Positions 7,408 through 14,551 of a stretch of 38,135 nucleotides of DNA are shown piece after piece. Within the stretch, counting starts at the first letter, position 1. Every line of letters begins with the position of its first letter. The stretch spans positions 1 to 38,135 of the IMG/VR virus record IMGVR_UViG_3300042534_000806. The stretch is one strand, 5' to 3'. The notes under the pieces are model-generated. The model was not told where the DNA came from and ran no database searches. It saw only the letters and a program-made list of their open reading frames with translations. The position numbers and the translations under genes were made by a program. Source of the DNA: a virus.

Positions 7408-9189
7408 TCATTTAACAATCGCCAACCGTGGCGCTTGTTCCAAACCTTTTCCTTCCAGCCGATCCGCCACCTCCTGCAGCATTTCTTCCGGCACGCCGTC
7501 CGGGTACCACTCGACCAATCGGGCTCTGTCCTCGCTGCCCACCACCCGCCCGAGCAAACCGCGCAGCCGCATGCCAGCCTGGGTATGATTCAGCGCCTTG
7601 ACCTCGACCTGCATACGGTTGGGGACGTGCAACGCTTCTCCTGGGCGATCCATGAAGGCTGGCGCCGAAACGTTGGCAAGGTGGGAATGGGCATCCAGCC
7701 CGCCGAATGGCGCGGCGTTCTTGTTCTTGGCTTTCTCGATGCCTTCCAGGTCGAGGCCGGGGAAAGCAGCGCGATCGGCGGCCTTGCCCGCTTTCTCGAT
7801 CATCGTGTCGGGCTGTGATTTGAACTCCTCGCCAAACACGCCGGCATCGCCGCGGAATCCGGCCAGCCGGTCGCCGGAAATGGGCTTGAGGATATGGGTG
7901 ACTTCGTCGCCCTTGTAATCCGACACGGTGACCAGCACCTCGGCGTCGCCGTACACCAGGGGGGAAACCTTCACCATCTGGGAAATGTAAATACCAGGAA
8001 CGTGAGCAACGTCGTAGTGCTCGCGCTGCTGGGTAGTCGGATGCTTGAAGCTGATGGTCAGCTCGGCGGAAACCTTGCGCTCGATGAAATCGGCGGAAAG
8101 CAGCATCCGGCACAAGCTGATGTCGGGCAGAAGGCGCAGCTGCTCCTTGCGGATCATCTGCCACAGCGCGTAGCGCGCCTTCGGCTCGGTCATGTATTTG
8201 CGTTTCAGACGGGCGTCGTAAGCAGGGATCGCGTCGGCATTGTAGGCGTTGTACCAGCCTTCCACGGCGGCGTTGAGCGCATCCACATCGGCCACCGGCT
8301 CGTAACGCAAACGGCTCTCGAACAGGCACTCCACCCGGTTGTTTCCGTTTTCCACGCTGCCTTTGGCGCGGGCATTGCCGGCCTTGTGCTCGATGGGGGT
8401 CACCTGCAGGGCGCGCAGCGCGTTCTTGATCGCGGCGGCGGTGTTGGCGCTGCCCTTGTCCCACAGCAAGATTTTCGGCACGCCGTGGAGCAGGCGGCCA
8501 TCCAGCTTTTGCCAGCAGTACAGCAGGAAGTCGAACAGGTTGGCCTGATTCTCACCCTTGGCCTGGTAGTAGCGCACGAGCGTGGCGTTGCTGTAATGGT
8601 CTGTCAGCACGTAGCGCCACACCTTCAGCTTGATCTTGGCGACGTTCTCCAGCTTGTTCTTGTAGAACTCGTCGTCGCGGATGATGTGCTGGCTACCGTC
8701 CGGCAGGTAATAAATCAGGCACAGCGAAGGATCGACCTGGTGAACATGGTTGGGATGCAGCGAACGCATCGACTGAACGGCGCGATCGCGCTTTTGCGCG
8801 GCCAGGCTCATCTGGCGCACCCGCAGCAGATGGTTGATGCGCCCGTTGGAAACCGTGATTGCACGGCCGTTTTGCGACAGCATGGAAACAGCCGTCGGCG
8901 TGTGCATCGTCGCCTTGCCATTCTTGCGCACACCGTATTTGAGCGTGGCGCAAACATCGTCCAGCACGGTCATATCCTGAGTGGTCGCGCCCCGGTCGGA
9001 ACGGGATTTGCGCCCACTGCTCCAACCCACCTTGCCCAGTTCGCGGTAGACCTTTGTCCGGCTCCAGCCGTACATCTCGGCGAAGGCGAGTACCGCATCG
9101 CCGGTGCGGTGCCCGGCCTCGTCGAGGCGGCGTGCGAGATCCCGGACTGCGTCCAGCATCCCCAGCATGGCGGGTTCGGCAATACCCAT
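7408..9189 (-). CDS. DDE transposase (MuA-like, rve integrase core)
   Basis: A 593-residue protein. An N-terminal helical DNA-binding region (about 10-125, with GWSRTKVYRELGKVGW like an HTH) precedes an RNase H-fold catalytic core. Candidate catalytic residues are D153 in HQVDPSLCLIYYL, D244 in LLWDKGSAN and E280 in ARAKGSVENGNNRVE; the last two are 35 residues apart, the classical D,D(35)E spacing. A beta-barrel-like domain and a Lys/Gln-rich C-terminal tail follow; in Mu the tail contacts B and ClpX. It carries out replicative transposition of the phage genome. A weak GGGAG site lies 9 bases before ATG 9189. Confidence 0.95.
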   Translation of the reverse strand: MGIAEPAMLGMLDAVRDLARRLDEAGHRTGDAVLAFAEMYGWSRTKVYRELGKVGWSSGRKSRSDRGATTQDMTVLDDVCATLKYGVRKNGKATMHTPTAVSMLSQNGRAITVSNGRINHLLRVRQMSLAAQKRDRAVQSMRSLHPNHVHQVDPSLCLIYYLPDGSQHIIRDDEFYKNKLENVAKIKLKVWRYVLTDHYSNATLVRYYQAKGENQANLFDFLLYCWQKLDGRLLHGVPKILLWDKGSANTAAAIKNALRALQVTPIEHKAGNARAKGSVENGNNRVECLFESRLRYEPVADVDALNAAVEGWYNAYNADAIPAYDARLKRKYMTEPKARYALWQMIRKEQLRLLPDISLCRMLLSADFIERKVSAELTISFKHPTTQQREHYDVAHVPGIYISQMVKVSPLVYGDAEVLVTVSDYKGDEVTHILKPISGDRLAGFRGDAGVFGEEFKSQPDTMIEKAGKAADRAAFPGLDLEGIEKAKNKNAAPFGGLDAHSHLANVSAPAFMDRPGEALHVPNRMQVEVKALNHTQAGMRLRGLLGRVVGSEDRARLVEWYPDGVPEEMLQEVADRLEGKGLEQAPRLAIVK

Positions 9190-11337: not shown

Positions 11338-11520
11338 ATGTACGTCATTTGCTCCGCACCAAAATGCAAGTTCAACAAGCCGGACCATCACAACTTGAAT
11401 GCCTGCCCGGAATGCGGCGGAAGCCTGATCGCCCAGTGTCCCAATTGCAGCGCCTTTCTGAGACACAAGGGCGGGTTTTGTCATGAGTGCGCTCAACCGC
11501 TTAAGCAGCCGGCCGAGTGA
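11338..11520 (+). CDS. small double zinc-ribbon protein
   Basis: A 60-residue protein with four cysteine pairs: C5/C10, C23-C26 (CPECGG), C34-C37 (CPNC) and C48-C51 (CHEC), the pattern of a double zinc ribbon. It may bind nucleic acid or a protein partner. It is the only plus-strand gene inside the leftward early arm. It converges with the neighbouring zinc-ribbon gene and their 3' ends overlap by 20 bases. The start has GAGGG about 9 bases upstream. Confidence 0.7.
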   Translation: MYVICSAPKCKFNKPDHHNLNACPECGGSLIAQCPNCSAFLRHKGGFCHECAQPLKQPAE

Positions 11521-11755
11521 GCGCGCCGCCGCAAATCGGGCAGCCCTTGAATGTGGCGAACAGCGCCAGCTCGTCGTCGGTGCCAGTGGTATGGCAATGT
11601 GGGCAAAGTTCGTTGTGGGTAATTTCTTCGCTGCAAGAGACGCAGTGACGGGCAAGAACCCCATCGTAGTCGGCGGGTTGTTCGATGCCGCAGTGTGCGC
11701 AGGCTAGAAAGGTTTTGGTTGCGGTGACTTCGCGGGTGAAATAACGGGGTTTCAT
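11501..11755 (-). CDS. zinc-ribbon protein with four CxxC motifs
   Basis: An 84-residue protein with CxxC pairs at C19-C22, C38-C41, C51-C54 and C72-C75, enough for two zinc sites. AAGGAG lies about 7 bases before ATG 11755. It is the second gene of the early operon, after the Ner-like protein. Its function is unknown; zinc-ribbon proteins of this type often work as adaptors for nucleic acid or polymerase binding. Its 3' end overlaps the opposite zinc-ribbon gene. Confidence 0.75.
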   Translation of the reverse strand: MKPRYFTREVTATKTFLACAHCGIEQPADYDGVLARHCVSCSEEITHNELCPHCHTTGTDDELALFATFKGCPICGGALTRPAA

Positions 11756-11783: not shown

Positions 11784-12017
11784 TTAAGCGGCGCGGCGTT
11801 CTAGCGCTTTGGCAGGATCGGAGCACGTCTCGCCCCGCTTGATGCCGAGCTTGACGGCGATGTTGTGAGACTGACCCCGGACTGCCTTGCGGCGGCCGGC
11901 CAGAATTTCGAGCACCAGGTTGGGGTTGAAGTGGTTGGCGACAGCCCAGGACGTGACGGATACGCCTTTGCTATCCAGCTCGGCGCGGGCCTCTTTGGCG
12001 GTACGTAGCTTGTTCAT
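11784..12017 (-). CDS. Ner-like DNA-binding protein (BcepMu gp16 family)
   Basis: A 77-residue protein matching the BcepMu gp16 family: KEARAELDSKGVSVTSWAVANHFN, then LVLEILAGRRKAVRGQSHNIAVKLGIK, a complete small HTH. It is the first gene behind the early promoter and diverges from the repressor, so it probably plays the role of Ner/Cro, tuning down early transcription and blocking repressor synthesis. I chose ATG 12017, with AAGGAG 7 bases before it; the longer frame to 12050 lacks a site. Confidence 0.9.
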   Translation of the reverse strand: MNKLRTAKEARAELDSKGVSVTSWAVANHFNPNLVLEILAGRRKAVRGQSHNIAVKLGIKRGETCSDPAKALERRAA

Positions 12018-12070
12018 GGTTCGGCTCCTTACGGGTTGTTCTGTGTTCATTGCTGCTGTATGTGTGTTGA

Positions 12071-12109: not shown

Positions 12110-12547
12110 ATGTCTCAAAAAGAAAAAGAGTCTGTCGGGGTGAGAATCCTGAAAGTCCGGGGTGAAATGGGCGTTGCCGAATTTGCTGATGAACTCGGCG
12201 TAAATCGCAAAACCATTACACGATGGGAGGCAAATGAAGCCCTGCCGGATGGCGCATCATTGTTAGCGCTTATGCAGAAATTTGGGGTCGATCCTGCATG
12301 GATTTTGACTGGCAGCGGTGCTGCCCCTGACCTTGCACCGGACGAAGCTACGCTACTCGCCAACTACCGACACTGCCCGCCCGATGGGAAGACGGCAATC
12401 AGGGCGACAAGTGCTGCGCTCGCAGCTGGAACGGTAGCGCCCCGCAAAAAAATAAAACAGATTGAAGGGTCAATTCAGAATTTCCACAGCCAGGTCGACC
12501 AAGTCGCTGGACGGGATGTGGTTAATCAGGGGAGGCGCAAGAAATGA
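12110..12547 (+). CDS. phage repressor (XRE-type HTH) with C-terminal QVAGRD motif
   Basis: A 145-residue protein with an XRE-type HTH at about 20-65 (GVAEFADELGVNRKTITRWEANEALPDGASL, then FGVDPAWILTGSG), a short helical linker, a basic stretch PRKKIK at 111-116, and a C-terminal tail at 123-140 (QNFHSQVDQVAGRDVVNQ). There is no LexA-like protease domain. It diverges from the Ner-like gene across the palindromic operator, so it is the immunity repressor. The tail motif recurs at the N-termini of the next two proteins. I chose ATG 12110, with AGGGG just upstream, over an in-frame ATG at 12074 inside the operator. Confidence 0.88.
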   Translation: MSQKEKESVGVRILKVRGEMGVAEFADELGVNRKTITRWEANEALPDGASLLALMQKFGVDPAWILTGSGAAPDLAPDEATLLANYRHCPPDGKTAIRATSAALAAGTVAPRKKIKQIEGSIQNFHSQVDQVAGRDVVNQGRRKK

Positions 12548-12933
12548 CTCAGGAATTTCACGGTCCAGTGGACCAAGTGGCAGGCCGAGATATCGTCAAC
12601 CAGAGCGAAACCATGCTTTGGCATTGTGAGACATCTGAGCTGCGGCCAGAGCTGAAGCGATGCCGCGGCAAGCTTTGGCAAGCACGCCTCAACCTATTCC
12701 TGAACGTGCCTACGGTCTGGATGGTTGCCGGCCTGCTCGTTGGCGTCTGGCTTCTGACAAGTGGGCAACTATTCAAGCAGGATGGGGAACTTTTGATGTT
12801 GGGTTGGGCGGTTGGTGGTGTCGTTATCCCGTCGCTATGGTTGGCACAGATAAGGAACAGCGAAGGTCATGCGATCTCGTTTTATCGGGAGCGCATTTCA
12901 ATCATCAAATTGATTTTGCGGGACAGGGCTTAA
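12544..12933 (+). CDS. two-TM protein with N-terminal QVAGRDIVNQ motif
   Basis: A 129-residue protein. Residues 3-20 (QEFHGPVDQVAGRDIVNQ) repeat the C-terminal motif of the repressor almost exactly. Two hydrophobic segments follow, about 53-72 (LNVPTVWMVAGLLVGVWLL) and 83-101 (LLMLGWAVGGVVIPSLWLA), then a basic C-terminal tail. It overlaps the repressor stop by 4 bases, so it is made in the lysogen together with the repressor. A membrane role in superinfection exclusion or as an effector is a hypothesis. No family recognised. Confidence 0.75.
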   Translation: MTQEFHGPVDQVAGRDIVNQSETMLWHCETSELRPELKRCRGKLWQARLNLFLNVPTVWMVAGLLVGVWLLTSGQLFKQDGELLMLGWAVGGVVIPSLWLAQIRNSEGHAISFYRERISIIKLILRDRA

Positions 12934-12993
12934 TTATGGATTAGGCGCCAACCACACGCCGCCGGATCACAAACAACAAAAAAGGGGATGGGG

Positions 12994-13653
12994 ATGCAGC
13001 AGGAGTTCCAGGAGAAGATCGGGCAAGTGGCCGGCAAAAATATTGTGAATGAGGGTTCGCACGGTGGTGACAGCGCCCACTCCATCAATGTCACGATCCA
13101 CGGCAATGTGACCGGACAGGAAATCAGGATCGGCACGATTACGGGCGGCACCAACATGATCGGCCATCATGGCGATATCCACATCCACGCCGAGCGCGTG
13201 GTGCACAAACCCAAGATCATTATCCAGCCCGGCCCGGAGCACATCAGCGACACCCAGCGCGCAAAATTGAAAGAGCTGGCAGCCGAGGTCGTCAAGATCG
13301 AGTCCGCCGTAAAGCGCAGCCCAAAGGGTTTCAGCGCCGTCTGGAGCGCGCTCAATCGCAAGATGAAAGCCTCCTCCTATCACCTCATCCGATCGGACGA
13401 TTACCCCAAGGCCGAAAAATTCCTGCGCGAATGGATCGGCCGCATCAGCTCGGCAAAATCCGCCCCGACCAAAGACCCGGACTGGCGCAAGCGCAAATAT
13501 TCCTACATCCACACCAACGTGAAGCAACTCGACGCCGGTGAGCGGCTGGATACGCTGCTCGCGGAAAAACATGGGGCGGCGTCATTGAAGGATCTGTCGA
13601 ATGATGATTTGGCCGCCGTGTACCAGACAGTTGCAGGGTGGAAACGGAAATAA
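12994..13653 (+). CDS. motif-bearing protein with beta-rich repeats and ORF6C-like C-terminal domain
   Basis: A 219-residue protein. Residues 3-20 (QEFQEKIGQVAGKNIVNE) carry the motif shared with the two upstream proteins, at the same positions as in the two-TM protein. Residues 28-70 are short Gly/His/Ile-rich strands (INVTIHGNVTGQEIRIGTIT and on), possibly a beta-helix or a self-assembling segment. Residues 85-150 (KLKELAAEVVKIES, then FSAVWSALNRKMKASSYHLI) resemble ORF6C, the C-terminal domain of phage antirepressors. A C-terminal helical part follows. I chose ATG 12994, 6 bases after AAGGGG; ATG 12988 touches that site. Confidence 0.72.
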   Translation: MQQEFQEKIGQVAGKNIVNEGSHGGDSAHSINVTIHGNVTGQEIRIGTITGGTNMIGHHGDIHIHAERVVHKPKIIIQPGPEHISDTQRAKLKELAAEVVKIESAVKRSPKGFSAVWSALNRKMKASSYHLIRSDDYPKAEKFLREWIGRISSAKSAPTKDPDWRKRKYSYIHTNVKQLDAGERLDTLLAEKHGAASLKDLSNDDLAAVYQTVAGWKRK

Positions 13654-13831: not shown

Positions 13832-14005
13832 ATGGCGGAAGATAAAAAACGAGACACGGATCATAAAACGCTGAACGAAGAGGTGCGCAAGCAGGAACGA
13901 TCTAATAGCAATGACTATGCTGAGCGCGGGAGCAGGCAGGATGTTACCAATACCCGGCCCGCGCCAGGCCCAAAGGATAATGGAAATTCCAACAAAAAAG
14001 GGTAG
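13832..14005 (+). CDS. small hydrophilic, probably disordered protein
   Basis: A 57-residue protein made almost entirely of charged and polar residues (MAEDKKRDTDHKTLNEEVRKQ, ending GPKDNGNSNKKG), so it is likely disordered. AAAAGGA precedes ATG 13832 by 6 bases; an in-frame start at 13769 lacks a site. It ends 3 bases before the two-TM gene, so the two are co-translated and may act together. No family recognised. Confidence 0.6.
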   Translation: MAEDKKRDTDHKTLNEEVRKQERSNSNDYAERGSRQDVTNTRPAPGPKDNGNSNKKG

Positions 14006-14008
14006 GCC

Positions 14009-14551
14009 ATGAATGACGAGAGGATGAGTGACCATCGTCTGCACAAACTGCTGTTCGATGTTCGCCGCTCCTTGCGTTACCATGACCGGCGACGGGCGTT
14101 CTTCGATCGGATGCACCAGATCACCGCCGGCCTGACGGTACTGCTCGCCGGTTCTGTATTATTCGAACTGGCACGACCGGGCGAGACGGCACCCTGGATG
14201 ATCGCTTTGGCCGTTGCTGCCGCCTTGTTGTCCTCCTGGGATATCGTTGTCAGCTATGCGAGCAAGGCCGGTCTTCACCGTGATTTAAAGATTCGATTTG
14301 GCGCGCTGGAAATGGCGATTCTAGCCGGCGATGAAACCTACGAAGCATGGCAGCATCACCATCTTGATCGCCTGCGCATTGAGCAGGATGAGCCGCCCGT
14401 CTTCCGTGCTCTCGACTTGCTTTGCCATAATGAATTGCTGGTAGCAGAGGGGTTCAAACGCAACGACGAAAAAGATAAGGAAGAATTTGCCCGCCTCAAC
14501 GGTTGGCAGCGCGCCACTCGCCACCTCTTTCACTGGGCCGATCTCGCCTGA
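14009..14551 (+). CDS. SLATT-like two-TM protein
   Basis: A 180-residue protein. An N-terminal amphipathic helix (about 10-35, LHKLLFDVRRSLRYHDRRRAFF) leads into TM1 (about 37-55) and TM2 (about 62-84), then a long soluble helical part with the conserved-looking HRDLKIRFGALEMAI segment. This two-TM plus helix layout resembles the SLATT superfamily, whose members act as pore-forming effectors in prokaryotic conflict systems; membership is my inference. It ends the lysogeny cassette just before the late promoter, so it may serve phage exclusion. Confidence 0.65.
   Translation: MNDERMSDHRLHKLLFDVRRSLRYHDRRRAFFDRMHQITAGLTVLLAGSVLFELARPGETAPWMIALAVAAALLSSWDIVVSYASKAGLHRDLKIRFGALEMAILAGDETYEAWQHHHLDRLRIEQDEPPVFRALDLLCHNELLVAEGFKRNDEKDKEEFARLNGWQRATRHLFHWADLA

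Follow-up and report, generated by a model that had tools for sequence, protein, structure and literature searches.

A short motif on the C-terminal tail of a phage lysogeny repressor recurs at the N-termini of the two proteins encoded just downstream, a protein with two transmembrane (TM) segments and an ORF6C-like protein, and related pairs or triads were found in many other phages and prophages. We interpret the motif as a set of matched homotypic docking tags that link the repressor with membrane and ORF6C modules and let the partner tune lysogeny, and assign this reading a probability of roughly 60%. The arrangement is real and recurrent and, with no description found in the literature searched (mostly open-access papers, no preprints), it is unreported as far as those papers show.

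The DNA analyzed (the window) was a virus record of 38,135 bases (IMG/VR IMGVR_UViG_3300042534_000806, positions 1 to 38,135). Its lysogeny repressor (145 aa; 12110..12547, + strand) has an HTH domain (HTH_3, 1.9e-8; phrog_8, 7.9e-13) followed by a C-terminal tail, in which the motif QNFHSQVDQVAGRDVVNQ was read in translation at residues 123–140 (12476..12529, +). The stop codon of this gene overlaps the start (ATGA) of the gene for the 129-aa two-TM protein (12544..12933, +; phrog_17537, 2.5e-7), whose TM segments lie at about residues 49–73 and 82–101 by hydropathy and whose head motif, QEFHGPVDQVAGRDIVNQ, was read in translation at residues 3–20 (12550..12603, +). The ORF6C-like protein (219 aa; 12994..13653, +; phrog_17822, 1.9e-46) matched PF10552 below the cut-off (9.6e-4; 19.5 bits, gathering threshold 22), starts at the ATG at 12994 with a second in-frame ATG at 12988, and carries the head motif QEFQEKIGQVAGKNIVNE at residues 3–20 (13000..13053, +), where the confidence of its model was below 50. 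The earlier note had placed the motif at these residues of these three proteins, which it named nearly correctly: an HTH repressor, a protein with two TM segments, and an ORF6C-like protein just under the Pfam cut-off. A small polar ORF (57 aa; 13832..14005, +) and a gene for a SLATT-like membrane protein (14009..14551, +; phrog_11791, 2e-34; NCBIfam NF033634, 5e-5 and 23.3 bits, below its cut-off of 41), both without the motif, follow and are perhaps part of the same transcript; the SLATT-like product may be the operon's effector. Between 11900 and 15000, scans for promoters and terminators did no better than on shuffled sequence, so the operon limits of the cassette are tentative. The repressor region showed 66% DNA identity over ∼360 bases to Pseudomonas aeruginosa phages H71, Fc02, and their relatives, in which the rest of the 4.4-kb query was unmatched; by reading, the gene order to the left of the window repressor resembled that of H71, and Fc02 has been termed B3-like (PMC9936078). 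The window is a candidate B3-like transposable phage, a type expected to have its transposase, ner-like gene, and divergent repressor in the H71/Fc02 order.

The resemblance of the three segments was greater than that of shuffled sequences. The best ungapped BLOSUM62 segment between the repressor and the two-TM protein scored 76 (300 shuffles: mean 25.3, maximum 42; Gumbel p 1e-8), and the repressor/ORF6C-like and two-TM/ORF6C-like pairs each scored 57 (shuffle maxima 53 and 43; p 1.6e-4 and 3e-5). When the two-TM motif was compared with all window ORFs of at least 40 aa on both strands, the three genes gave scores of 91, 71, and 48, and the next ORF gave 31. Identical residues were encoded mostly by different codons: the repressor and two-TM motifs share 13 of 18 residues (8 with different codons), the ORF6C-like and repressor motifs share 8 of 18 (5 with different codons), and the ORF6C-like and two-TM motifs share 9 of 18 (6 with different codons). 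In 42 tail-head pairs drawn from 39 loci, the same codon was used at 182 of 397 identical residues, compared with 171.4 expected from codon usage in the two genes concerned. Because codon identity is near this expectation, recent duplication fails to explain the shared motif, and recent duplication or gene conversion was dropped as its origin. The motif is thus constrained at the protein level while the DNA drifts, as the earlier note had claimed.

The motif is not peculiar to the window phage and was found in Mu-like and P2-like prophages of Pseudomonadota. The general layout is a short HTH repressor with a C-terminal motif and a partner with the same motif at its N-terminus; the partners include ORF6C-like proteins, ORF6C-TM fusions, two-TM proteins, and tiny one-TM proteins, and the motif letters vary strongly among loci (QVAGRDI, GDVGQVV, GQYxEG, VGQA, ITQVGG, NVQIG). 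A DNA pattern for F...[VI].QVAGR[DN][IV] matched 19 viral stretches, 17 of which, several being near-duplicates, were a motif head starting a gene of this module; the remaining two were the twin of the window (L017) and a match judged to be chance (L025). The preceding gene was read for 10 of the 17 heads and proved to be a repressor in eight, a cut-off ORF in one (L019), and a 71-aa protein in one (L021), with a related tail on all ten. Over genome contigs the same pattern gave 27 stretches, of which by reading 24 were chance and three were real (L032, L036, L044). One motif was common to a repressor, a TM protein, and an ORF6C-like protein in the window, L036, G175, and G136: in Burkholderia aenigmatica (L036) the order is repressor, ORF6C-like protein, and two-TM protein, and in genome G175 the motif is on the repressor, on an ORF6C-TM fusion, and on a two-TM protein. 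G136 encodes an additional 75-aa protein with little beyond the motif and one TM segment. Repressor-partner pairs also occur in the deposited phages KS5, AP3, and Carl1 (Peduoviridae) and in KS10, which has a transposase; the KS5 partner was entered merely as a membrane protein (PMC3091744), and the AP3 partner goes unmentioned in the portion of the AP3 report consulted (PMC5247547). The earlier note had proposed to check whether the motif, as a repressor-linked signal, recurs at the termini of neighboring genes; such recurrence was seen in many phages.

Not every search recovered these relatives. Short tblastn queries of the motif alone gave nothing in phages; the window ORF6C-like and two-TM proteins each found, at the limits used, one relative among deposited phages, that of the two-TM protein not being credible (E 0.8), and against viral contigs they found only the identical contig IMGVR_UViG_3300046044_000269. 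The two-TM family phrog_17537 matched 3 of 299 genomes, one of them doubtfully. One genome search matched 28 genomes, 14 of them with E ≤0.0026; G130 and G154, among its weaker matches, returned in the family-profile search described below.

The co-variation of tail and head within loci was assessed by census and by permutation. The family profiles phrog_6521 and phrog_5825 (ORF6C/TM), each of which matches 1 of 14 control genomes (E. coli), yielded 37 proteins, and for 27 of these the head motif and the repressor tail were judged by reading to match, with alignment scores computed alongside; by search batch the matches numbered 21 of 21 (two being identical copies in G175), 1 of 9, and 5 of 7. 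Among the 10 unmatched proteins, five aligned by a C-terminal segment only, with no motif in the part inspected (L127, L128, L132, L133, L135), two loci had neither tail nor head (L129, L131), L153 was another kind of protein, and L134 was counted but left out of the reading. At G084 the head was present, and no repressor occurred within the 12 kb read. These profiles contain the head, so the search favored heads and only the tail side is fully independent. Matching letters differed from locus to locus, with tail/head pairs such as GQYIEG/GQYTEG (L008), VGQAV/VGQAI (L087), GEVSQVV/GDVSQLV (L113), GDVGQLI/GDVGQVV (L117), and GITQVGG/IIQVSG (L150), along with NVQLG/NVQVG/NVQIG in G136. For 39 loci in 25 clusters, a mixture of motif-found and profile-found cases, the mean Smith-Waterman (SW) score of a tail with its own head was 41.5, versus 29.3 with other heads, a difference reached in 0 of 20,000 permutations; the bodies of the same proteins, used as a control, gave 21.6 versus 23.0 (4820 of 5000 permutations). 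Restricting the test to the profile-found loci (15 clusters) gave a median of 0 and a worst value of 3 of 2000 permutations, and removing the two pairs whose repressors, further upstream, had been chosen by hand (L105, L115) left a strictly mechanical set of 13 clusters with a median of 2 and a worst value of 9 of 2000. The heads of L106, L116, and L121 include leader residues from the leftmost start. Own scores were low at some loci (25 for L116, 27 for L106 and L086), and in only 5 of the 25 clusters did the own head rank first, so own-pair preference is a matter of degree. This joint variation of tail and head among viruses makes it probable that the tags dock the proteins that carry them.

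The tags also behave as modules. In a group of loci with RHIM-like motifs (described below), repressor bodies are 49–70% identical, yet 14–17 of 17 tail residues are identical, the tail being more conserved than the body that carries it. Nine viral records belong to this group: eight combine an ORF6C-like VQIG head with a VQVG or VQLG repressor tail, and the ninth, of 13 kb, had no repressor match. Such conservation argues against a functionless tag, whether left over from an old duplication or present as a low-complexity linker, as do the within-locus co-variation and a codon identity near chance level; the motif is indeed short, apparently flexible, and terminal, as a leftover would be, but we regard this explanation as very improbable. 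Absences bear on a case that the earlier note had raised against its own idea, that of homologous phages carrying the genes without the motif. Tail and head were missing together at H71, L129, and L131; the H71 repressor body, though closely related, stops short of the tail, and the next gene has no head, a joint absence that favors the shared-signal idea. Komp_PAO1_1 weighs on the other side, its tail being kept with no partner found in its genome.

Covalent equivalents of the proposed docking were also found. The repressor of phage Gregale is an HTH domain fused to an ORF6C domain that is 40% identical to the window ORF6C-like protein (E 9e-29) and exceeds the Pfam cut-off for PF10552 (25.9 bits), and partners of the L009 type combine an ORF6C-like part and a TM segment in one protein. 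What most strongly suggests a joining role for the tag is that components fused in one phage occur elsewhere as separate proteins, each with the tag. The Gregale fusion would also suit a tail that serves repressor self-association only, for cooperative operator binding, with the partners acting as regulators that join or cap the oligomers and their membrane location incidental. In keeping with this idea, no other oligomerization domain was matched by Pfam in the window repressor, and KS10, L150, and L158 have a repressor-ORF6C pair whose partner has no predicted TM segment, and the stretch read there contained no TM protein with the motif. Many partners are nevertheless membrane proteins, and two-TM and tiny one-TM proteins bear the tag without any ORF6C part, so we consider a purely self-associating tail decidedly unlikely.

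The structure of the ORF6C-like partner was modeled with AlphaFold2. Residues 80–219 (13231..13650, +) form a helical ORF6C-like domain with pLDDT values of 77–95 per ten-residue block, apart from one block at 62; the best BFVD match of the model was an ORF6C protein (E 1.4e-5). A Foldseek search of the PDB gave no match at E 0.001, and VIA-align, run on Foldseek candidates only, related the helical core to the C-terminal domain of Sak80alpha (Z 10.0, rmsd 1.5, 66 residues) and to that of Redbeta (Z 7.4), values that a common helical-bundle arrangement can reach, so the likeness is only a lead. The matched Redbeta structure had been solved with an SSB peptide, and the Sak80alpha domain is bound by the SaPI2 repressor Stl2 (PMC11846896); by this structural likeness, the ORF6C part may recognize SSB or else a recombinase, and the same likeness is a possible ligand hint for ORF6C domains generally. 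SaPI2, like the window, has a mobile-element repressor alongside a small helical C-terminal domain, which in SaPI2 is bound by the repressor; neither a terminal motif in common nor a membrane protein is described in the part of that account consulted (PMC11846896). Phage antirepressors with an ORF6C domain likewise share the partner domain and helical fold; the window protein differs from them in lying below the Pfam cut-off, in having no match to Bro-N or KilA-N, and in its motif head. When tail and head were modeled by AlphaFold2 in one chain, no fold was obtained (mean pLDDT 53).

The layout recalls two known systems. In modular synthases, a C-terminal docking domain pairs with the N-terminal one of the next protein, as the tags are proposed to do here; the purpose is unrelated and the likeness is one of layout alone. 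The second is the BASS class of bacterial signaling amyloids, in which neighboring proteins share a short motif, C-terminal in one and N-terminal in the other (PMC8086366, PMC7889193), the motif families are many and unrelated, some pairs were found by local alignment of neighbors, and one side is thought to be a membrane-targeting protein. BASS pairs, however, consist of a Bell effector and an NLR receptor, mainly in multicellular bacteria, whereas the present loci would join a phage repressor to ORF6C/TM partners in prophages of Pseudomonadota. No NLR (NB-ARC/NACHT) family was matched by the window proteins up to E 1, the matches being to HTH and ORF6C families. The earlier note had also invoked RHIM motifs, the core tetrad of which is V/I-Q-V/I-G (PMC12119088). 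The window motif, D/G-Q-V-A-G, does not contain this tetrad, and RHIM membership was dropped for it (QVAGRD); the tetrad does occur in the G136/G250/IMG group, in the heads and in most of the tails, with VQIG or IQIG heads and VQVG or VQIG tails, G136 and L187 having VQLG tails instead. The amyloid precedent thus held for the BASS-like layout and failed for the RHIM tetrad in the window and the NLR domain.

The same observations bear on an amyloid-type signal, in which repressor freed by induction or superinfection would let its tails nucleate ordered aggregation of the partner head, and a membrane effector would then exclude or abort infection. The BASS-like layout (PMC8086366, PMC7889193), the tetrad in both tail and head of G250 and the IMG contigs together with the VQLG tails, and the nearby SLATT-like membrane gene are in its favor. 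Against it stand the tetrad-free window motif, the absence of NLR or known effector domains from the window proteins, and the extra segment that L009-type partners carry behind the TM helix. PADLOC returned nothing for the window partners and only HTH matches such as RmrA (2.6e-5) for the repressor, and a defense-system label for the cassette was dropped after this search. On an aggregation scale used without a reference set, the window motif gave modest positive values (0.16–0.32) and that of G136 gave 0.36–0.78, which decides nothing. We consider this signal rather unlikely. The membrane toxin, superinfection exclusion, or abortive infection that the earlier note proposed is unsupported so far: L009-type partners have one TM segment and then a C-terminal segment with two cysteines (a DUF1496 likeness came from one match only, L012, E 0.037, below cut-off), and this cysteine-bearing end, which probably lies on the non-cytoplasmic side, is at least as compatible with sensing as with killing.

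For matched docking tags the following course may be proposed. The short repressor would comprise a DNA-binding HTH domain and a flexible tail, and its C-terminal tag would bind the same tag at the N-termini of the membrane protein and the ORF6C-like helical domain, which are separate here and one polypeptide in other phages. We infer this physical binding, its beta or amyloid-like geometry, the direction of control, and the signal. The Fc02 lysogen transcript spans repc together with the next gene (PMC9936078), so lysogens are likely to produce adjacent partners, probably from the repressor transcript; the ORF6C partner of the G136 group, lying kilobases away on the opposite strand, is outside that transcript. 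Assembly of the tags would tether or oligomerize the repressor, holding it near the membrane or in assemblies, where the membrane/ORF6C partner could modulate it and lysogeny could respond to an envelope signal or an ORF6C ligand. A bolder version, which we advance only tentatively, is that locus-specific and interchangeable amyloid-like tags connect repressors with membrane and ORF6C modules, that templated assembly conveys stress of the envelope or of replication to the repressor, and that tag specificity decides which prophage components join; such loci would be an undescribed class of lysogeny control and NLR-independent signaling amyloids in bacteria. A review of amyloid signaling asks whether NLR-independent examples exist in fungi and bacteria (PMC7889193), and these loci make that question directly testable. 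Tag docking could also explain how short repressors with no recognized cleavable domain receive signals (no peptidase family was among the 16 Pfam matches of the window repressor), could give a role to unknown or "membrane protein" genes beside repressors such as KS5 gp12, KS10 gp12, and AP3_0038, and could offer natural C-terminal/N-terminal tag pairs.

Several minor features were noted. In L159 a 75-aa ORF (8311–8538, −) consists of the repressor-tail motif (KRSQVIVGGSNNVQVG) and one TM segment and, from its sequence, reads as a minimal membrane anchor bearing the tag. The partner heads of L087 (1396–2178) and L120 (1408–2178) have two successive motif-like copies, VGQAIQAGE and then SVAGRDIVN or NIAGRDIVN, which recall two-repeat HET-s domains. 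AP3_0038 (L168, 2501–3256), annotated as an alpha/beta hydrolase, aligned along its whole length with the L024 ORF6C-TM partner (46.9% identity), so its name looks wrong. A Lys/Arg-rich stretch (GRRKK, GRKKKRES, KKKK) often ends the repressor tails, after the motif, in the many loci read. SLATT-like genes without the motif lie just downstream of the tag genes in the window (14009–14551), L021 (3579–4112), and L087 (2309–2956), assigned by phrog_11791 in the first two and by alignment in L087. Near the module, several prophages (L013, 9275–9748; L159, 7124–7579, −; L170, 3300–3752) encode a small protein whose N-terminus is signal-like and which has in common a stretch reading AAYDKNEVAADQKYKGK or nearly so. 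To the left of the window repressor, two small zinc-ribbon-like ORFs (11338–11520, +, and 11501–11755, −; Pfam matches below cut-off) overlap tail to tail and adjoin an HTH gene (11784–12050, −).
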